Assembly (NCBI RefSeq): GCF_007830175.1
Contig: NZ_VLKH01000007.1
Span: 1 to 64,000, forward strand
From: Sedimentibacter saalensis
GTDB taxonomy: Bacteria > Bacillota > Clostridia > Tissierellales > Sedimentibacteraceae
Reading direction: 5' to 3'
DNA length: 64,000 bases
The position numbers and the translations under genes are program-made. Shown here piece by piece: positions 1,103-46,075 of this stretch. The stretch's first letter is position 1, and each line of letters begins with the position of its first letter. Under the pieces are notes generated by a model. The model did not search any database. It was given only the letters and a program-made list of their open reading frames with translations, and was not told the DNA's origin.

Positions 1103-1130
1103 TTTACAAAAAATTTACACTTTACTTACA
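1103..1130 (+). promoter_or_regulatory. Candidate Pho box upstream of arsC
   Basis: Three direct repeats occur at exact 11-bp intervals: TTTACA (1103-1108), TTTACA (1114-1119) and CTTACA (1125-1130). PhoP/PhoB-type regulators bind TT(A/T)ACA-like repeats with 11-bp periodicity. There are 31 bases from the last repeat to the -10 element TATAAT at 1162, exactly as for the repeats upstream of pstS at 39501-39517. The repeats and spacing are visible; binding is inference. Confidence 0.55.
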
Positions 1131-1145
1131 AATTTCATATCGACA

Positions 1146-1167
1146 TATGAGCATATGCTGATATAAT
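1146..1167 (+). promoter_or_regulatory. ars promoter -10 and candidate ArsR operator
   Basis: The near-perfect palindrome TATGAGCATATGCTGATA (1146-1163) has a perfect core AGCATATGCT (1150-1159) and overlaps a consensus -10 TATAAT (1162-1167). No good -35 is present, which fits an activated promoter. Related cores CATATGCT occur here and at 1704-1711. The position suggests repression by the ArsR encoded in the operon. Confidence 0.55.
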
Positions 1168-1200: not shown

Positions 1201-1614
1201 ATGAACAATAAACCGAAAGTAGCATTTATCTGTGTGCACAACTCATGTAGAAGCCAAATGGCTGAAGCACTTGGAAAGCATTTTGCAGGAGATGTCTTTG
1301 AAAGCTATTCAGCAGGAACTGAAACTAAACCTCAAATAAATCAGGATGCAGTAAGACTGATTAAAAAGATTTACAATATAGATATGGAACAAACTCAATA
1401 TTCTAAATTGATAACTGAGCTTCCTGAAATTGATATAACAATAAAAATGGGATGTAATGTAATATGTCCATTTGTTGACAGCAAGTACGAGGAAGACTGG
1501 GGCCTAGATGATCCAACCGGAAAAAGCGATGAGGAATTTGAAAAAATAATAGAAGAAATTGAAAAGAAGATTAAAGACCTTGCTCATAAAATTTCAAATG
1601 AAAAACTGTATTAA
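1201..1614 (+). CDS. arsC: Arsenate reductase, thioredoxin-coupled type
   Basis: A 137-residue cytoplasmic enzyme of the low-molecular-weight tyrosine phosphatase fold that reduces arsenate to arsenite so the efflux pump can export it. The P-loop CVHNSCR (residues 11-17) gives the CX5R signature with nucleophile Cys11. Cys85 and Cys89 in MGCNVICPF are the likely redox relay cysteines that pass through a disulfide to thioredoxin. The DWGLDDPTGKSDEEF segment is typical of this ArsC class. AAGGAGG lies just upstream of the ATG. It is the first gene of the arsenic operon, with a 122-base gap before arsD. Confidence 0.9.
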   Translation: MNNKPKVAFICVHNSCRSQMAEALGKHFAGDVFESYSAGTETKPQINQDAVRLIKKIYNIDMEQTQYSKLITELPEIDITIKMGCNVICPFVDSKYEEDWGLDDPTGKSDEEFEKIIEEIEKKIKDLAHKISNEKLY

Positions 1615-1701
1615 TTGATGTTGGTTTTCATATTTATTATAGGATAATAATGTTGCCAGCATTACTAATGTTTTTTTAAAACCAGAGCGTATGAATATAT
1701 A

Positions 1702-1711
1702 CTCATATGCT
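1702..1711 (+). promoter_or_regulatory. Second ArsR-like half site between arsC and arsD
   Basis: CTCATATGCT matches 8 of 10 bases of the palindromic core AGCATATGCT at 1150-1159 and lies 26 bases before the arsD start. It may mark an internal ArsR-controlled promoter. I see no convincing -35/-10 pair, so this is tentative. Confidence 0.3.
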
Positions 1712-1736
1712 AATTGATTAACATATAGGAGGAAAA

Positions 1737-2093
1737 ATGAAGAAGATTCAGATATTTGAGCCAGCAATGTGCTGTCCTACTGGACTTTGCGGGGTGGGAA
1801 TAGACCCGGAGCTCTTGAGAATGTCAACCATGCTGAACAATTTAAAAAAGAATGGTGTGGAAATAGAAAGATTTAATCTGACAAGTTCGCCCATGGAATT
1901 TATAAACAACAAGACTGTAAACAAATACATCAATGAAAATGGAGTCGATGTCCTGCCTGTTACAGTTGTGGACGGTGAAATTTCTGTTTCTGGAAGATAT
2001 CCTACAAATGAGGAAATTGTAAGATATCTTGGGATTTCTGTAAGCACAATAGACTCACAGCCAAAAGTTGCAAAGGTAAGACGCGGCAGGTAA
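1737..2093 (+). CDS. arsD: ArsD-type arsenic metallochaperone / repressor
   Basis: A 118-residue ArsD protein. Cys12, Cys13 and Cys18 (AMCCPTGLCG) match the arsenite-binding triad known for ArsD. In characterised systems ArsD hands arsenite to the ArsA ATPase and acts as a weak repressor. The rest is the expected thioredoxin-like fold ending in a basic VAKVRRGR tail. AGGAGG precedes the ATG by 4 bases. No arsA is present in this operon, so the chaperone's partner here is unclear: it may act with Acr3, as a regulator, or with an ArsA encoded elsewhere. Confidence 0.88.
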   Translation: MKKIQIFEPAMCCPTGLCGVGIDPELLRMSTMLNNLKKNGVEIERFNLTSSPMEFINNKTVNKYINENGVDVLPVTVVDGEISVSGRYPTNEEIVRYLGISVSTIDSQPKVAKVRRGR

Positions 2094-2124
2094 GGTGGAA
2101 ACTAACAATGAAGGGGGCAATAAG

Positions 2125-2472
2125 TTGATAGAAATATTAAAAGCATTAGCAGATGAAACAAGGCTGCGAATTTTAGCTCAGATTATAAAAAACGAAATGT
2201 GTGTGTGTGAAATTGAAGAGTGCCTTCAGCTTACTCAGTCCAATGCTTCAAGGCATCTCACTGTTCTCAGGAGAGCAGGGATCCTGGAAAGCTACAAAAA
2301 TGCACAGTGGACATATTACAAAATAAGCAAGGAATTTATAAGTGAAAACAAGGAATTATATGATTATATTATTAAAAAAATCAAACAACTTCCTTGTTAT
2401 GAAACTGACTGCGCAAATTTTGACAGTTGCAGAAACCAGGACTTATGCATTCAAAATATAAATTTAAAATAA
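2125..2472 (+). CDS. arsR: ArsR-family arsenite-responsive repressor
   Basis: A winged-helix repressor that releases DNA when As(III) binds. The metalloid site motif MCVCEIEE is present, followed by the recognition helix LTQSNASRHLTVLRRAGIL. I chose the TTG at 2125 because GGGGG lies 7 bases upstream, giving 115 residues that begin directly with IEILKALADETRLRIL. The alternative GTG at 2095 adds ten residues but has only a poor ribosome site. The C-terminal tail carries four extra cysteines (CYETDCANFDSC...C). It is translated just after arsD and ahead of acr3. Confidence 0.9.
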   Translation: MIEILKALADETRLRILAQIIKNEMCVCEIEECLQLTQSNASRHLTVLRRAGILESYKNAQWTYYKISKEFISENKELYDYIIKKIKQLPCYETDCANFDSCRNQDLCIQNINLK

Positions 2473-2487
2473 AATTGGAGGAGTATT

Positions 2488-3543
2488 ATGGGTAGTGAAA
2501 ATTCATCAGGAATAGGATTTTTCCAAAAATATTTATCGCTTTGGGTAGCGCTGTGCATGGTTGTTGGAGTTCTAATTGGCAGGTTTATGCCGGCTTTGCC
2601 TGCATTTTTAAACAAGTTTGAATATGCAAAAATATCAATACCAATGGCTGTGCTCATTTGGGTAATGATTTATCCAATGATGATGAAGGTTGATTTCCAG
2701 AGCCTGAAAAACATCAGAAACAATCCCAAGGGTTTGTATATAACATGGGCAACTAACTGGCTTATTAAACCATTCACCATGTATGCAATTGCATCATTTT
2801 TCTTTTATGTGGTTTTTAAAAATTTCATTGCTCCGGATTTAGCAAAGGAATATCTTGCAGGTGCAATACTTCTGGGTGCTGCTCCTTGTACAGCTATGGT
2901 ATTTGTATGGAGTACACTGACAAAGGGTAACCCTGCATACACAGTGGTACAGGTTGCAACGAATGATCTTATTATTCTTGCAGCGTTTGTGCCCATTGTA
3001 AAGTTTTTGCTTGGAGTAAGCAATGTAAGAGTACCTCTTGAAACTTTGATATTGTCTGTTGTGTTGTTTGTTGTAATACCTCTTGCCGGAGGAATACTTA
3101 CAAGAATTAATGTAATAAAGAAAAATGGCATTGAATACTTTGAAAATCAGTTCCTGTCCAAATTTGACAATGCAACAACTGTAGGACTGCTTCTTACATT
3201 AGTTCTGATATTCTCGTTCCAGAGTGAAGTAATACTTAACAATCCTCTGCACATTGCTTTAATAGCAGTGCCTTTGACGCTGCAGACATTTTTGATTTTC
3301 TTCATTGCATATCTGGCATGCAAATCATTTAAGCTCCCTTATGACATTGCTGCTCCTGCAGGAATGATAGGTGCATCGAACTTCTTCGAACTTGCAGTAG
3401 CTGTTGCAATTGCGCTCTTTGGTCCTACATCTCCGGCAGCTCTTGCAACAACCGTAGGAGTTTTAACAGAAGTTCCAACAATGTTGTTGCTTGTTAAGAT
3501 AGCAAACAATACAAAAAGCTGGTTTCCGGCAAGTAAACTATAA
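2488..3543 (+). CDS. acr3: Arsenite efflux permease, ACR3 family
   Basis: A 351-residue integral membrane protein with about ten hydrophobic segments, of the ACR3 (BART superfamily) class that exports arsenite using the proton motive force. The conserved segment GAAPCTAMVFVWS puts the essential cysteine at Cys134 in the fourth membrane segment. The late block MIGASNFFELAVAVAIALFG is also characteristic. GGAGGAG precedes the ATG by 6 bases. It is the last gene of the operon, followed by a clear terminator. It completes reduction (ArsC), binding (ArsD), sensing (ArsR) and export. Confidence 0.93.
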   Translation: MGSENSSGIGFFQKYLSLWVALCMVVGVLIGRFMPALPAFLNKFEYAKISIPMAVLIWVMIYPMMMKVDFQSLKNIRNNPKGLYITWATNWLIKPFTMYAIASFFFYVVFKNFIAPDLAKEYLAGAILLGAAPCTAMVFVWSTLTKGNPAYTVVQVATNDLIILAAFVPIVKFLLGVSNVRVPLETLILSVVLFVVIPLAGGILTRINVIKKNGIEYFENQFLSKFDNATTVGLLLTLVLIFSFQSEVILNNPLHIALIAVPLTLQTFLIFFIAYLACKSFKLPYDIAAPAGMIGASNFFELAVAVAIALFGPTSPAALATTVGVLTEVPTMLLLVKIANNTKSWFPASKL

Positions 3544-39500: not shown

Positions 39501-39517
39501 TTTACATAGTTTTTACA
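39501..39517 (+). promoter_or_regulatory. Pho box upstream of pstS
   Basis: Two TTTACA repeats at 39501 and 39512, 11 bp apart, lie 31 bases before a -10 TATATT at 39549-39554. This is the expected site for the response regulator encoded in the same cluster, and has the same geometry as the repeats upstream of arsC. Confidence 0.65.
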
Positions 39518-39588
39518 TTGTTGCGGTTTTTTTTTTACTCTGTGGGTATATATTAAGCACAGGTAAAAATTGAGTAAAGGAGTATGCA

Positions 39589-40467
39589 ATGAAAAGAAGA
39601 AAAACTCTAGGTTTTTTAGTTTCAATTTCTGTTTTATCAATTGCTGCTGCAGGGTGTTCAAAAGGACAATCTATGGAAGAGTTCAACTTCGATAAAGAAA
39701 TTACGGTTGTTGCAAGAGATGCCGCATCCGGAACAAGGGGAGCTTTTCATGAAATAATGAAAATAAAAGTGAAAGCGGACGGAACAGAAACAGATAATCT
39801 GGCTGTTGGTGCTCTTGAATTTGACGGCACAGATAAGGTGGTGACTGCCGTAGAAGGAGACAAACATGCCATAGGCTACATTTCTGTTGGATCTTTGAGC
39901 GATAGAGTTAAGACTGCCAGAATAAACGGAGCTGATCCAACAGAAGAAAATATTAAAAACGGGTCCTATGTAGTGTCAAGACCATTTTTGCTGGTGACAA
40001 AAGAAAATAAAACTGAGCTGGTGGATGATTTTATAAAGTTTGTATCTTCATCAAGAGGTCAGACAATTGCAAAAGAGATGAAATACATTCCGGGAGCTGA
40101 AGCTGAAGAGGAATATACTGCATCTGGACTTAAGGGAACAATCAAGGTTGCCGGGTCAACATCCGTGACTCCTCTGATGGAAAAACTCCAGGAAGATTAC
40201 AAATCTTTGAACCCAGATGTTACGTTTGAAATGCAGTCAAATGGTTCATCACAGGGAATCAAGGCAGCAATTGACGGTTCCTACGACATAGGAATGAGCT
40301 CAAGGGAGCTTAAGGAAGATGAAGCTATAAGTTTAAAAAGGCATGTGCTGGCAATTGACGGAATTGCTGTAATACTTAACAAGAATAATCCCATAAGTGA
40401 TTTGTCATCGGAAGAAATCACAGAAATTTACACAGGAAAAATAACATCCTGGAGGCAGGTGAAATAA
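39589..40467 (+). CDS. pstS: Phosphate ABC transporter substrate-binding lipoprotein, circularly permuted order
   Basis: A 292-residue lipoprotein (signal ending in lipobox AAAGC, Cys23) that captures phosphate outside the cell. The order of halves is reversed relative to classical PstS. VVARDAASGTRGAFHE, IGYISVGSLSD and SRPFLLVTKE, usually C-terminal, come first. GTIKVAGSTSVTPLMEKL, DIGMSSRELKEDE and IAVILNKNNPISDLSSEEI, usually N-terminal, come last. Phosphate-binding motifs of both halves are kept. GGAG lies before the ATG; its TAA overlaps the pstC ATG region. First gene of the phosphate operon. Confidence 0.9.
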   Translation: MKRRKTLGFLVSISVLSIAAAGCSKGQSMEEFNFDKEITVVARDAASGTRGAFHEIMKIKVKADGTETDNLAVGALEFDGTDKVVTAVEGDKHAIGYISVGSLSDRVKTARINGADPTEENIKNGSYVVSRPFLLVTKENKTELVDDFIKFVSSSRGQTIAKEMKYIPGAEAEEEYTASGLKGTIKVAGSTSVTPLMEKLQEDYKSLNPDVTFEMQSNGSSQGIKAAIDGSYDIGMSSRELKEDEAISLKRHVLAIDGIAVILNKNNPISDLSSEEITEIYTGKITSWRQVK

Positions 40468-41348
40468 TGGAAAATGCAAAAAAATCAAAATTTAACGACA
40501 CTGTTATGCAGTCAGTTTTCTTCATGTCTGCTTTTGTGTCAGTGCTGGCTGTAATTGCCATCAGTTTGTTTCTGTTTTTAAGGGGAATACCGGCAATAGC
40601 AGAAATAGGATTCATGGATTTTGTTTTCAGCGAAAAATGGGGACCTGTAAATACACCGGCATCCTATGGAATTTTATCCATGATAGTGGGAAGTATTTAT
40701 GTAACAGCAGGTGCAATTGTAATAGGTGTTCCTGTAGGATTAATGTGTGCTGTTTTTCTGGCAGAGTTTTGCCCGGAGAGTATTTATAAAATTGTAAAGC
40801 CTGCTGTCAATCTGCTTGCAGGAATTCCATCAATCATTTATGGTTTTTTCGGAATGCAGATTGTTGTTCCCTTTGTAAGAGACAACATAGGAGGTAACGG
40901 CTACAGCATATTGTCTGCTGCCATTATTCTTGGGATAATGATTTTGCCTACAATAATATCAATAAGCGAATCTTCCATAAGAGCAGTACCGGAAAGCTAC
41001 AAGGAAGGATCTTTCGGCCTTGGAGCCACAAAAGAAGAAACAATATTTAAGGTTGTGGTACCTGCAGCAAAATCAGGTGTTCTTACAGCAATTATATTGG
41101 GAATAGGTAGAGCGGTTGGTGAAACAATGGCTGTTGTAATGGTTGCAGGAAACGCAGTAATGCCTCTAGATAAAATAGCAATTTTAAAACCTATCAGAAC
41201 ACTTACAACAAATATTGTTACGGAAATGAGTTATGCTTCGGGACTTCATGAATCATCACTTATAGCAACTGGCGTGGTTTTGTTCGTGTTCATAGTAATA
41301 CTAAATGCCTCCCTAAGTTTAATAAAATCCAGATCATCGAGAAATTAA
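40467..41348 (+). CDS. pstC: Phosphate ABC transporter permease PstC
   Basis: A 293-residue inner-membrane permease with six membrane segments. The binding-protein-dependent transport signature is EGSFGLGATKEETIFKVVVP. LLAGIPSIIYGFFGMQ is typical of PstC. The ATG overlaps the last base of the pstS stop, with GGAGG about 12 bases upstream. Works with PstA, PstB and PstS in high-affinity phosphate uptake, which is also the usual entry route for arsenate. Confidence 0.94.
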   Translation: MENAKKSKFNDTVMQSVFFMSAFVSVLAVIAISLFLFLRGIPAIAEIGFMDFVFSEKWGPVNTPASYGILSMIVGSIYVTAGAIVIGVPVGLMCAVFLAEFCPESIYKIVKPAVNLLAGIPSIIYGFFGMQIVVPFVRDNIGGNGYSILSAAIILGIMILPTIISISESSIRAVPESYKEGSFGLGATKEETIFKVVVPAAKSGVLTAIILGIGRAVGETMAVVMVAGNAVMPLDKIAILKPIRTLTTNIVTEMSYASGLHESSLIATGVVLFVFIVILNASLSLIKSRSSRN

Positions 41349-41357
41349 GGAGGAATC

Positions 41358-42236
41358 ATGGAAAATACAGCTCTGGAAAAAAGCGTTCTAAATAAAAGAA
41401 AAACAAAGTCTCTGATTCTAAGGTCTCTTGTTTGGCTTTGCGGAATATTGACAGTGGGAATTCTTGCATATATACTGTTGTTTATACTAGTTAGAGGAAT
41501 TCCAAACATAAACATGGAATTTCTTTTCGGAGAATACAATTCTGAATCGCTGTCAGCATTCTCTTCAATTGTGACAACTGTGGAAATGATAGTGATTTCC
41601 CTTGTCATTGCAGTTCCTGTTGGAGTATTTTGTGCAATATATTTACATGAGTACTCAAAGAGAGGAAATAAGGCAGTTAAGGTTATCAGACTTGCTGTAG
41701 ACACTCTGGCAGGAATACCGTCCATTGTGTACGGATTGTTTGGAATGATATTCTTCGTGAACATTCTCGGTCTAAGAGCATCAGTATTGTCAGGGGTGCT
41801 TACTATATCAATAATGATACTTCCTGTAATCATAAGCTCATCAGAGGAAGCCATAAAGTCTGTTCCGGACATGTATCGTGAAGGAAGTCTGGGCCTTGGA
41901 GCAACAAGGCTTAGGACTGTGTTTTCAATAGTTCTTCCCACAGCAATGCCTGGAATTTTATCAGGGGTTATCCTGGCAATAGGAAGAATTGTGGGTGAAA
42001 CTGCTGCGCTAATATTTACAAGCGGAACAAATGTACTTGAAAATCCTACTCTGGATGTTATGGCATCTCAAAGAACACTTGCAATTCATATGTACATGCT
42101 GGCAAGTGAAGGTCTGCCGCATTCAAAGGACATGGCATTTGCAACAGGAGCAATACTTATCATAATTGTATTTTTAGTAAATTTTGCCGCAACAAAGCTT
42201 GCAGGCAGAATAGGGAGGCTGAACAATGGAAAATAA
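41358..42236 (+). CDS. pstA: Phosphate ABC transporter permease PstA
   Basis: A 292-residue permease, paralogous to PstC, with six membrane segments. [15 protein letters not shown] and the ABC-coupling loop [20 protein letters not shown] are clear. AAGGAGG precedes the ATG; the gene follows pstC by 9 bases and overlaps pstB by 11 bases. Confidence 0.94.
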
Positions 42237-42984
42237 AGAAAAAATGAAAATAGAAAATATAAATTTATATTACGGAGAATTTCAGGCTCTGAAAAATATA
42301 AACATGAATATTAATGAAAATGAAATTACTGCTTTCATAGGTCCTTCTGGCTGTGGCAAGTCAACTCTTTTAAAATCCTTAAACCGCATGAATGACCTGG
42401 TTGAAGGAGTGAAAATAGAAGGAAAAATTCTGCTGGACAATGTGGACATATACAAGGACATGGATGCAACAGTTCTCAGAAAAAGAGTTGGGATGGTTTT
42501 TCAAAAGCCTAATCCATTCCCCATGAGTATTTACGACAATGTGGCATATGGGCCAAGGACACACGGCATCAAACAAAAGTCAAGGCTGGATGAAATTGTT
42601 GAACAAAGCCTTCGTTCAGCAGCTATGTGGGATGAAGTGAAAGACAGACTTAAAAAAAGTGCGCTGGGAATGTCCGGAGGACAGCAGCAGAGGCTTTGCA
42701 TAGCCAGAGCATTTTCCGTGAACCCGGAGGTGATTCTTCTTGATGAACCAACATCTGCATTAGATCCGATTTCTACAATGAAAATAGAAGATTTACTTGT
42801 TGAAATCAAGAATAATTACACAATCATCATTGTAACTCACAACATGCAGCAGGCAACAAGAGTTTCAGACAAGACTGCATTTTTCCTGCACGGGGAAGTT
42901 GTTGAGTTCAATGAAACAGAAAAACTGTTCTCAATGCCTAAAAACAAAAAAACAGAAGATTATATAACCGGAAGATTCGGCTAA
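42226..42984 (+). CDS. pstB: Phosphate ABC transporter ATPase PstB
   Basis: A 252-residue ATPase. Walker [11 protein letters not shown]-loop [24 protein letters not shown] signature [16 protein letters not shown] and Walker [15 protein letters not shown] are all intact. GGGAGG lies ahead of the ATG within the end of pstA. Energises the PstCA pore and, with PhoU, signals phosphate sufficiency to the sensor kinase encoded downstream. Confidence 0.96.
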
Positions 42985-42997
42985 TAGGAGGTATAAT

Positions 42998-43645
42998 ATG
43001 AGAAATAAATTTGATCATGAGCTTGAAAATTTGAACCTGGAACTGATTAAAATGGGAAGCCTCATTGAAAATGCAATTGAACTTAGCACCAGATCTCTTT
43101 TGGAGCAAGATTTGGAGCTTGTTGGCAAGGTTAATGAGCTTGAAATTGAAATTGATGAAATGGAAAAAACAATTGAAAGTCATTGTCTTAAACTTTTGCT
43201 CCAGCAGCAGCCTGTGGCTTCTGACCTTAGGATAATCAGCACTGCTCTAAAAATGATTACGGACATGGAACGCATAGGGGACAACGCTGAAGACATTGCA
43301 GAAATAGCAAGATTTATGGTTAACCAGAAGTTTATAAAGGATCTTGTTCATATACCTCAGATGGCTGAAGCCACCATCAGCATGGTGACAAGAAGCGTTG
43401 ATGCCTTTGTAAACAAAGACAGAAAGCTTGCTGAAGAAGTGTGTGCATATGATGACATAGTTGACAATTTGTTTCAGGTTGTAAAAAAGGAACTCATAGA
43501 AAAAATTCAGGAAAATACAGAAAACGGAGAACAAGCAATTGACCTCCTCATGATTGCAAAATATTTTGAAAGAATAGGCGATCATGCTGAAAATATAGCT
43601 GAATGGGTTATATTTTCAATTACAGGAGAACATAAACCAAAGTAG
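42998..43645 (+). CDS. phoU: Phosphate transport system regulator PhoU
   Basis: A 215-residue protein made of two three-helix bundles. The duplicated metal-binding segments are TALKMITDMERIGDNAEDIAE and AKYFERIGDHAENIAEWVIF. It links PstB to the kinase and keeps the phosphate regulon off when phosphate is plentiful. AGGAGG precedes the ATG; 13 bases after pstB and 7 bases before the response regulator. Confidence 0.95.
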   Translation: MRNKFDHELENLNLELIKMGSLIENAIELSTRSLLEQDLELVGKVNELEIEIDEMEKTIESHCLKLLLQQQPVASDLRIISTALKMITDMERIGDNAEDIAEIARFMVNQKFIKDLVHIPQMAEATISMVTRSVDAFVNKDRKLAEEVCAYDDIVDNLFQVVKKELIEKIQENTENGEQAIDLLMIAKYFERIGDHAENIAEWVIFSITGEHKPK

Positions 43646-43652
43646 GTGAGTT

Positions 43653-44348
43653 ATGAAGACTATTTATTGTGTTGAAGATGACGCGGGAATAAGAGAGCTC
43701 ATAACACTGGCTCTTTCAGCAGCTGATTTTGAGGTGTACGGTTTTGAAGATGCAAAAGGATTTTATGATGAAATTAAAAAGAAAATTCCAGACTTGGTAT
43801 TGCTTGATTTGATGCTTCCTAAAGTTGACGGCATGACGATTCTAAGAGACATGAAAAAAGAAATGGACTACAAAGACATACCTGTGATAATTCTTACAGC
43901 AAAATCAATGGAACTTGACAAGGTCAGGGGACTTGAATCAGGAGCAGATGATTTTATAACGAAACCTTTTGGTGTTCTTGAACTGCTGGCAAGGGTGAAG
44001 GCAGTATTGAGGCGTTACGGAAAAAACGGTCAAAACGGCAGTGAAACTGATATCACGGAATACAACGGGCTCATACTTGATTACCAGAAGAGAAATTTAA
44101 GCTACAACGGTACTTCAATATCATTGACATTCAAGGAATTTGAACTGTTGCATTTCTTAATGCTCAACAAGGGAATTGTTCTTTCAAGAGATAAAATCCT
44201 CCAGGAAATATGGGGATATGATTATGAGGGCGAAACACGGACTGTGGATATGCACATAAAAACCATCAGGCAGAAACTTGAAAGTGCAGGGTGCATTAAT
44301 TTCATATCCACCGTTAGGAGTGCAGGATATAAATTGGAGGAACAGTGA
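43653..44348 (+). CDS. phoP: Response regulator, PhoB/PhoP type (OmpR family)
   Basis: A 231-residue regulator with a receiver domain (acidic pocket VEDD, phospho-acceptor in LVLLDLMLPKVDG, Lys in FITKPF) and a C-terminal winged helix (LTFKEFELLHFLMLNKGIVLSRDKILQEIWGYDYEGETRTVDMHI). Clustering with pst, phoU and a PAS-type kinase identifies it as the phosphate response regulator. Its expected binding sites are the 11-bp-phased TTTACA repeats at 39501 and possibly at 1103. Confidence 0.9.
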   Translation: MKTIYCVEDDAGIRELITLALSAADFEVYGFEDAKGFYDEIKKKIPDLVLLDLMLPKVDGMTILRDMKKEMDYKDIPVIILTAKSMELDKVRGLESGADDFITKPFGVLELLARVKAVLRRYGKNGQNGSETDITEYNGLILDYQKRNLSYNGTSISLTFKEFELLHFLMLNKGIVLSRDKILQEIWGYDYEGETRTVDMHIKTIRQKLESAGCINFISTVRSAGYKLEEQ

Positions 44349-46075
44349 TGAAAAAGCGAATGTTCCTCATGATCACACTTATTTCAGTTGCTGCCTCTCT
44401 TTTAGCCTGCATATTGACATCATTTGTATACTATGGGTTTTATTCAGAAGATGCCAAAAATCAAATTAAGACTATAACTGAACTTTCAAGGGAGCCTGAA
44501 AAGTGGGGTGATGAAGAATCAGTGAAGTCATCTGTCAACAATATTTTAAAATCTGTTGATTACACCATGCGCTTTACCATAGTCGACAAAAGCGGAGTTG
44601 TTGTATATGACAATTGGGCAAGTGGTGAAACCCTGGATAACCATGGAAACAGGCCTGAAATAAAAAATGCATTTGCATACGGCTATGGAGATGATACAAG
44701 GTATTCAAACACAATATCGTCAGATATGTATTATTTTGCTGTAAAATTAAATGATAATAGAGTACTTCGCATATCGAGGGAAATAAAAAGCATCAATTCA
44801 GTATTCGCAGGTGTAATTCCATTGCTTGCGGTACTTTTTGTTATGCTTTTTGCTGTTGTATATGCATGTGCCAATGAATTTACAAAAAAAATTCTCAAAC
44901 CTGTCAATGAGATGACATCAGCTCTGGACGATATGCTGGAAGGAAACAACGTTCAAGAAATAAAAATATATGATGAGTTCAGGCCTCTTTCTCATAAAAT
45001 TAAAGACCAGAAAATAAAAATCAGCGAATATGTTGATGAATTAAGACATGAAAGGGACACAATAGGGATTATAACTGAAAATATGAAGGAAGGCTTCATA
45101 CTCATAAACCGCCATAAAAACATACTATCCATAAATCAAAGCGGAAAAAACATGATGAGAAACTACAATTTCAACCTGCAGGGAAGCAGGAACATACTTG
45201 AGCTTACAAGAAACGCAGAAATCATTGAAAATATTGATACAGCCATCAGGGAAAACACGCATTTGACATTTGACATGGATACGGGAAAAAACTTTTACAG
45301 GTATTATTTCAGTCCTGTTAAGGAACAGTCAGAAAGTATGGTTACAGGTCTATTAATACTCATTGAAGATGTAACATTTCAGAAGAAGGCAGAAATCATG
45401 CGCAGTGAATTTTCAGCAAATGTATCTCATGAACTGAAAACCCCTCTCACAACAATGATTGGCTTTGCTGAAATGATAAAGGAAGGGTTAATAACCGATT
45501 CAGACAGCATTAAAAAATATTGCGGTATGATACACAAGGAAGGGCTGAGGCTTATTTCCCTCATAGAGGATATTATAAGGCTTTCAAAAATTGAAGAAGG
45601 AATAGACGGGTACGAATACAATGAGGTAAATCTCAAGGAAACAGCTGAGGAAGTGGTGAACTTATTAAGGCACAAGGCAGAAGACAACAATGTCACTTTG
45701 ACATTGAAGTCCGAAAAAGTGATTATGGAAGCCAACAAAAATTATATAAGCGAGCTTTTGTACAATCTTGTGGACAACGGAATAAAGTATAACAAAAAAG
45801 GTGGAAAAGTTGATGTGGAAATATTTAAAAGAGGTGTTTTCATAAACATAGTGGTTAAAGACACGGGAACAGGAATTCCTGAAGAACACCAGCTACGTGT
45901 ATTTGAACGTTTTTACAGGGTTGATAAAAGCAGGTCCAAAGAAACCGGAGGAACAGGTCTTGGATTGTCCATTGTGAAGCATATAGCTGAGCTTTATGAC
46001 GGAGCAATTGATTTGAAGAGCTGGGAAAATGTGGGAACTCAAATCACTGTGCAATTTCCCTCAAAAGAGGTATAA
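44348..46075 (+). CDS. phoR: Sensor histidine kinase, PhoR type
   Basis: A 575-residue membrane kinase: N-terminal membrane segment (MFLMITLISVAASLLACILTSFVYY), an extracytoplasmic region of about 115 residues, a second membrane segment (AGVIPLLAVLFVMLFAVVY), a HAMP-like linker, a PAS domain (about 235-345), HisKA with NVSHELKTPLTTMIGF, and HATPase with DNGIKYNKKGGK, DTGTGIPE and GGTGLGLSIVKHI. I start at ATG 44348, overlapping the regulator stop (TGATG) after GGAGG; GTG 44345 is the alternative. Partner of the adjacent regulator. Confidence 0.92.
   Translation: MKKRMFLMITLISVAASLLACILTSFVYYGFYSEDAKNQIKTITELSREPEKWGDEESVKSSVNNILKSVDYTMRFTIVDKSGVVVYDNWASGETLDNHGNRPEIKNAFAYGYGDDTRYSNTISSDMYYFAVKLNDNRVLRISREIKSINSVFAGVIPLLAVLFVMLFAVVYACANEFTKKILKPVNEMTSALDDMLEGNNVQEIKIYDEFRPLSHKIKDQKIKISEYVDELRHERDTIGIITENMKEGFILINRHKNILSINQSGKNMMRNYNFNLQGSRNILELTRNAEIIENIDTAIRENTHLTFDMDTGKNFYRYYFSPVKEQSESMVTGLLILIEDVTFQKKAEIMRSEFSANVSHELKTPLTTMIGFAEMIKEGLITDSDSIKKYCGMIHKEGLRLISLIEDIIRLSKIEEGIDGYEYNEVNLKETAEEVVNLLRHKAEDNNVTLTLKSEKVIMEANKNYISELLYNLVDNGIKYNKKGGKVDVEIFKRGVFINIVVKDTGTGIPEEHQLRVFERFYRVDKSRSKETGGTGLGLSIVKHIAELYDGAIDLKSWENVGTQITVQFPSKEV

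Follow-up and report, generated by a model that had tools for sequence, protein, structure and literature searches.

A predicted PHO box precedes the arsenic-resistance operon of Sedimentibacter saalensis

Results and Discussion

The promoter of the arsenic-resistance (ars) operon of Sedimentibacter saalensis carries three hexamer repeats (positions 1103-1130 of the window, the whole 64,000-nucleotide stretch of contig NZ_VLKH01000007.1 that was analysed) which, judged from their sequence, very likely represent a clostridial PHO box. We consider it probable that the PhoP-type regulator encoded with the pst genes boosts ars transcription through these repeats at low phosphate, and that ArsR blocks the promoter until arsenite is present. 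Such joint control by PhoP and ArsR had been put forward in the first-pass annotation of the window. It is supported by the conservation of the box, by its specificity for the 11-bp step, by its fixed register to the -35 element and by its identity with the pst box, whereas the accompanying claim of a geometry shared with pstS did not hold beyond the distal repeats.

The ars promoter and operon

The operon has the gene order arsC-arsD-arsR-acr3 (1201-3543; Table 1) and its nearest relative by arsC is that of MAG UBA6113 (G003, 98%). In the source genome (G000) the box is located in the 217-nt gap between arsC and a divergent gene at 90-983. Direct reading verified that the repeats starting at 1103, 1114 and 1125 follow each other in exact 11-bp steps upstream of arsC, and that 31 nt separate CTTACA (1125-1130) from TATAAT (1162-1167), both as first annotated. 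Members of the Pho regulon have at least two direct repeats of 11 bp upstream of the promoter, and three are found at ars.

The core promoter reads TCGACA (1140-1145)-N16-TATAAT and is overlapped by a palindrome at 1145-1164, ATATGAGCATATGCTGATAT, which covers the last base of the -35 element and, in agreement with the reported overlap of an ArsR-like palindrome with the -10 element, the first three bases of the latter. Palindromes of this type in the ars spacer are presumably ArsR operators, as in the family generally, and the predicted operator has the position at the core promoter that is characteristic of ArsR-controlled operons. The gene for an ArsR/SmtB repressor also lies inside the operon (arsR, 2095-2472), and the CVC motif of its product is taken by us to bind arsenite, as in ArsR proteins generally. 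Among seven other aligned Sedimentibacter ars promoters, the palindrome core TATGAGCATA was found again in five (G003, G009, G015, G021 and G004) and was absent from those of G014 and G011; a palindrome is present in the -35/-10 spacer of most of the seven ars promoters of the genus that have the box.

Table 1. Features of the ars and pst regions, with positions in the window.
Feature	Position	Strand	Remarks
PHO-type repeat a, TTTACA	1103..1108	+	sequence reading
PHO-type repeat b, TTTACA	1114..1119	+	sequence reading; best conserved of a-c
PHO-type repeat c, CTTACA	1125..1130	+	9 nt from repeat end to -35
-35 element, TCGACA	1140..1145	+	TCGACA, TTGACA or TTGACG in congeners
Predicted ArsR-type operator palindrome in the -35/-10 spacer	1145..1164	+	18/20 positions symmetric
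-10 element of arsC promoter, TATAAT	1162..1167	+	sequence reading
arsC, LMWP-type arsenate reductase	1201..1614	+	active-site loop CVHNSCRS; NCBIfam arsenate-reductase matches below curated cut-offs
Second ArsR-type palindrome, arsC-arsD gap	1686..1711	+	22/26 positions symmetric
arsD, arsenite metallochaperone	1737..2093	+	
arsR, ArsR/SmtB repressor, CVC motif	2095..2472	+	NF033788, 90.9 bits (cut-off 55)
acr3, arsenite efflux transporter	2488..3543	+	TIGR00832, 370.9 bits (cut-off 282.8)
pstS PHO box: TTTACA, TTTACA, GCGGTT (degenerate), TTTACT, 11-bp steps	39501..39539	+	
pstS -10 element, TATATT	39549..39554	+	9 nt past last repeat; recognisable -35 absent
pstS-pstC-pstA-pstB	39589..42984	+	
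phoU	42998..43645	+	
PhoB/PhoP-type response regulator, presumed repeat binder	43653..44348	+	best match TIGR02154, 231.5 bits (below cut-off 296.2)
PnpS/PhoR-type sensor kinase	44345..46075	+	best match NF046044, 323.9 bits (below cut-off 400)

The pst promoter as reference

In this genome the ars and pst promoters share the repeat word TTTACA-N5-TTTACA. At pstS, two TTTACA hexamers 11 bp apart (39501-39506 and 39512-39517) could be read directly where they had been annotated, and the reported 31 nt from the second of them to the TATATT -10 element (39549-39554) were confirmed. The first-pass annotation overlooked a further in-phase repeat, TTTACT (39534-39539), located 9 nt before the -10 element of this promoter, in which no -35 element is recognisable. 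Alignment of 16 pst promoters from 15 genomes yielded the consensus TTTACA-N5-TTTAC[AT]-N16-TTTAC[TCG]-N9-TATA[TCG]T. The fourth repeat and the absence of a -35 element are common to all 16 alignable promoters; as these were chosen for having the pair, the independent observations are the fourth repeat and the -10 element. The remaining five of the 21 pst loci (G007, G015, G019, G021 and G023) stand outside the alignment, their promoters being missed by the open reading frame rule or by a contig end, or lacking the pair.

The proposed likeness of the two promoters is therefore partial: the distal repeats are alike, whereas the promoter-proximal half consists of a proximal repeat at pst and of a -35 element with a palindrome at ars. 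At pstS the most palindromic 20-nt stretch of the promoter is symmetric at 14 of 20 positions, compared with 18 of 20 at ars. The regulator and the kinase encoded with pst have PhoB and PnpS as their best matches, both below the NCBI curated cut-offs, so that a putative cognate pair is present. Since the ars promoter is without the -10-proximal repeat that replaces the -35 element at pst, it would be a variant acting in the manner of a Pho promoter and not a canonical member of the regulon.

As a separate observation, the PstS protein (39589-40467) looks circularly permuted, for its residues 26-107 correspond to positions 83-158, a late part, of a PBP profile of 193 positions, and residues 172-291 to the early portion of other profiles. 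Congeneric PstS proteins have a similar N-terminal half at their start.

Motif frequency and chance

The loose form of the motif is not enriched. In the whole window, 18 pairs with up to two mismatches were counted against 19.1 expected, and the whole genome contains 64+46 pairs with up to one mismatch against 69+58 for the reversed-pattern control. Motif density was consequently dropped as evidence, and the informative copies are the perfect, well-placed ones. The check suggested at first annotation, whether the pair is common at random sites, was run, and perfect pairs proved rare, with six in 3.83 Mb on both strands. The 25 genus genomes together contain 75 perfect pairs, and the reversed-pattern control gives 66. 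By position, 19 of the 75 are at pst, spread over 18 of the 25 genomes, and five are at ars (G000, G003, G011, G014 and G015). From the density of the remaining 51 sites over some 140 Mb of strand, about 0.002 perfect pairs would be expected in all of the ars upstream sequence of the genus (5,395 nt), an expectation that intergenic A/T-richness would raise. When the intergenic region 984-1200 was shuffled with dinucleotide composition retained, a perfect pair arose in one of 20,000 shuffles and a triple with up to one mismatch in none of 20,000. The signal is the placement and conservation of the perfect copies, not their number.

Conservation within Sedimentibacter

For the survey, 139 ars upstream segments were cut; 15 Sedimentibacter genomes contributed 25 of them, and a further 71 genomes of the order contributed 114. 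The acr3 loci of G098, G151 and G181 (order) and of G289 and G292 (class) lie outside the survey. A pair with up to one mismatch at the 11-bp step is present in seven of the 25 genus segments (G000, G003, G009, G011, G014, G015 and G021), and a perfect pair in five. At the remaining steps between 7 and 25 there was no perfect pair and none or one near pair (up to one mismatch), with the exception of step 22, the harmonic of repeats a and c, with three. Three tandem copies, each within one mismatch, occur in G000, G003, G009 and G011.

The distance to the core promoter is equally constrained. Using a rule that allows up to two mismatches each to TTGACA and TATAAT with a spacer of 15-19 and takes the best score, we found that the best -35/-10 pair starts 9 or 20 nt past the repeats in all seven promoters, that is, in one phase modulo 11. 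This register is kept in G011 despite a different operon layout and sequence.

Mean pairwise identity over the seven genomes is 0.95 for repeat b, 0.63 for a, 0.66 for c, 0.45-0.63 for the spacers and 0.37 for the flank. Hexamers a and c are thus barely above the spacers, and repeat b holds most of the conservation. Weak conservation of a and c would also be compatible with A/T-rich phased repeats that act, free of any regulator, as an UP element or a bend raising basal transcription. UP elements sit directly upstream of the -35 element, which is where these mostly A/T repeats are found, next to a near-consensus -35. We nevertheless regard this reading as very unlikely, because TTTACA, including its C, is kept at repeat b as the adjoining A/T spacers drift, and because the same word stands at pst, where a recognisable -35 is absent.

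Since the box lies in a divergent intergenic gap in G000, it might instead serve the gene at 90-983, which is phosphatidylglycerol-lysyltransferase-like and has a counterpart at the same place in G003. The neighbour is a different one in G009, G011, G014, G015 and G021, where the box still stands in the ars register; as the upstream gene varies between species, it is ars that the box accompanies. The shuffle and spacing controls speak against chance, and the two possibilities, service to the divergent gene and a chance or relic origin, appear highly improbable even when taken together. The box does not extend to all ars loci of the genus. It is absent from both the arsR and the arsC upstream regions of G024 (S. 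acidaminivorans), and degenerate traces are all that G004 has at ars. A pair with up to one mismatch is likewise missing from ars clusters whose arsR is unlike that of the window (G006, G008, G012, G013, G016 and G018) and from the second copy of arsC in G003 and in G011. The ars promoter of G007 is unreadable, the contig beginning 19 nt before arsC.

Occurrence outside Sedimentibacter

In the rest of the order a pair with up to one mismatch was found in one of the 114 segments (G192), out of register. A different form was encountered in G064, from another family of the order, where TTAACA-N5-TTAACA-N9-TTGACA precedes arsR; here the register is kept with an operon layout and a sequence that differ from those of the window.

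The class-wide set comprises 102 class or named segments at 63 loci of the 80 given. These 80 loci are partly redundant, as the named loci L141, L142 and L148 repeat G028, G058 and G521; the named loci L133-L138 and L151 are genus members and were excluded from the class count. Perfect TTWACA pairs occur in three of the 102 segments (L361, L145 and L146), with none at steps 8-10 and 12-15, and pairs with up to one mismatch number five at step 11 against 0-2 at these other steps. Loose triples (up to three mismatches) do not favour step 11 in these segments, with two there and two at step 8.

When the -35 element was picked by eye, all of nine promoters stood in the 9-nt register, and the rule-based check kept eight of the nine. 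The Acidaminobacter locus L145 was dropped as an in-register case, for a better-scoring -35/-10 pair lies elsewhere (gap 47) and the register fits only with a weaker one. L119 (gap 11), L361 and G192 also fail the rule-based check, as does L400, whose own second hexamer is a TTGACA. L147 (Clostridiales 38-18), with a pair containing one mismatch, is in register (gap 20). In L146 (MAG OKU13) three TTAACA hexamers at 11 bp (3410-3460) start 102 nt before an arsC-type gene, the first of two consecutive ones. The rule finds no TTGACA-like -35 element there, so that the layout is pst-like, and TTAACA arrays stand at both pst operons of this MAG.

By sequence, the predicted coupling of phosphate and ars is sparse, strongest in Sedimentibacter and with few candidates elsewhere. 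Besides the seven Sedimentibacter genomes, the candidates, in unrelated surroundings, are G064 and Clostridiales 38-18 (both in register), Acidaminobacter MAG4 (register uncertain) and the Firmicute MAG OKU13 with its pst-like tandem TTAACA array before arsC. Whether Clostridia have repeatedly wired ars into phosphate starvation, through a PHO box in fixed helical phase with an ArsR-repressed promoter and a gate for low phosphate and arsenite, arming detoxification before arsenate enters via phosphate transporters, is a question on which we find the case evenly balanced.

Identity of the repeat

A PHO box is defined, in a review of the Pho regulon, by two direct repeats of 11 nt (PMC4415409). 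In Sedimentibacter, 18 of the 25 genomes have perfect pairs upstream of pst. A scan of 393 Clostridia genomes for the triple tandem TTWACA pattern gave 49 sites in 39 of them, a modest excess over the control (about 39 sites, summed). Of these sites 30 were inspected, and 18 of the 30 adjoin pst, Pit, Na/Pi-transport or 5'-nucleotidase genes, as recognised by reading the translations, without a profile scan; seven of these 18 phosphate-linked loci come from one genus.

The repeats might alternatively be the site of another regulator of the OmpR family, most plausibly WalR, which would tie arsenic defence to the state of the cell envelope. The reverse complement of the box, TGTAAA-N5-TGTAAA, fits the WalR motif TGTWAH-N5-TGTWAH, and pstC is listed at 2.03 in a 'Wal-OFF' table, both in the same study (PMC9210968). 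Moreover, the source genome encodes a WalR-like regulator (G000:C1:345102; 318 bits, below the cut-off of 340) and some perfect pairs of the genus adjoin an UppS-like cell-wall gene. A WalR site would be expected in sense orientation, TGTWAH-N5-TGTWAH, before an envelope gene; what precedes ars is antisense and the gene is ars, the orientation being the one seen at pst. The three tandem copies in G000, G003, G009 and G011 speak for PhoP, as does the proximity of 18 of 30 triple-pattern loci to phosphate genes, and the pst operon carries its own PhoB/PhoP-type regulator gene beside the same box. Control of ars by WalR is thus unlikely, and PhoP is the preferred binder in what follows.

The six perfect pairs of the source genome are those at ars, at pst and at a Pit-type permease, plus L001, L002 and L004. 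In four Sedimentibacter genomes (L179, L182, L282 and L290) a perfect pair is flanked on one side by a gene for a HAD-like hydrolase and on the other by a divergent gene resembling that of undecaprenyl-diphosphate synthase, both named by eye; these pairs may be PhoP or WalR sites, both being possible. At L002, L278 and L286 a gene that by eye resembles a sigma-54 regulator begins roughly 100-120 nt away from a perfect pair; the pair is antisense in two genomes, G000 and G003, and sense in G020.

Proposed regulation of the ars operon

Phosphorylated PhoP would bind repeats a-c in tandem and aid RNA polymerase from just upstream of the ars -35 element. ArsR would block the same promoter sterically at the palindrome between -35 and -10, and arsenite would free the promoter from ArsR. 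The highest output would be expected from low phosphate and arsenite together, which would make the promoter a two-input gate. Because ars has its own -35 element and pst has none, ars is expected to be phosphate-modulated and not strictly phosphate-dependent, and because the promoter-proximal repeat is missing at ars, activation there would need a different contact. Furthermore, the palindrome at 1686-1711 suggests an internal arsenite-responsive promoter before arsD, and since no PHO repeats accompany it, arsenite on its own may also suffice to induce arsD-arsR-acr3.

Relation to known systems

The arrangement resembles the Pho regulon of Bacillus subtilis (PhoP) and Escherichia coli (PhoB) in its tandem 11-bp direct repeats, in the word shared with pst and in a PhoB/PhoP-type regulator encoded with pst. 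It differs in that the predicted target is an arsenic-resistance operon, in that the repeats lie upstream of a real -35 element instead of replacing it, and in the missing proximal repeat. With ordinary ArsR-repressed ars operons it has in common an arsR within the operon, a palindrome at -35/-10 and the genes arsC, arsD and acr3; the predicted PHO-type activator site upstream is an addition.

In Agrobacterium tumefaciens 5A, pst1/phoB1 is repressed by ArsR1, and the aioXSR promoter is bound by PhoB1 (PMC7965956, PMC7533571). The arsenic island of that strain (PhoB1, ArsR1, pst1, aio) is alike in coupling phosphate and arsenic regulators through promoters, whereas in the present case it is the ars operon that carries the predicted PHO site, the organism is a Firmicute, and no stretch of the pstS promoter is as palindromic as that at ars. 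PhoB of Halomonas HAL1 binds the aioBA regulatory region by EMSA and one-hybrid assay, at a single 18-bp box positioned -21 to -3 relative to the aioB start codon (PMC4563254). A PHO box at an arsenic gene is thus shared with that system; the target there is arsenite oxidation, in contrast to arsenate reduction and efflux in a Firmicute here. Links of PhoB and ArsR are known in Proteobacteria; the open-access PMC literature searched gave no example of a PHO box at the ars operon of a Firmicute.

If the prediction is true, a PHO box on the ars operon would let cells prepare for arsenate from the phosphate signal, and the release of arsenite in phosphate-poor sediments would be tied to phosphate status. 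It would also broaden the regulatory link between phosphate and arsenic, as described in the proteobacterial reports cited, so as to include anaerobic Firmicutes and the operon that carries out detoxification.

Arsenate uptake and Pit

Arsenate mimics phosphate, and its uptake is hence tied to the phosphate supply. The first-pass annotation named a leaky Pst transporter as the door for arsenate, and this part of its rationale is uncertain. One review names both Pit and Pst as routes of arsenate into E. coli, and Pst as the route into Agrobacterium and Streptomyces (PMC12607644), which supports Pst uptake in some bacteria. The same review describes Pst as the more phosphate-specific system, which discriminates against arsenate, and that of B. 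subtilis as not carrying it (PMC12607644); another paper presents Pit as the As(V)-prone system and Pst as the remedy (PMC9751042). In the source genome a Pit-type gene also adjoins a perfect pair, and Pit may likewise belong to the predicted Pho regulon here. This perfect TTTACA pair (L003, 1501-1517; C3:18021-18037 of the same genome) is located between a Pit-type permease (PF01384) and a divergent NMT1-type ABC binding protein. The pair between the permease and the divergent binding protein is found in three Sedimentibacter genomes (L003, L180 and L181), the profile scan covering L003.
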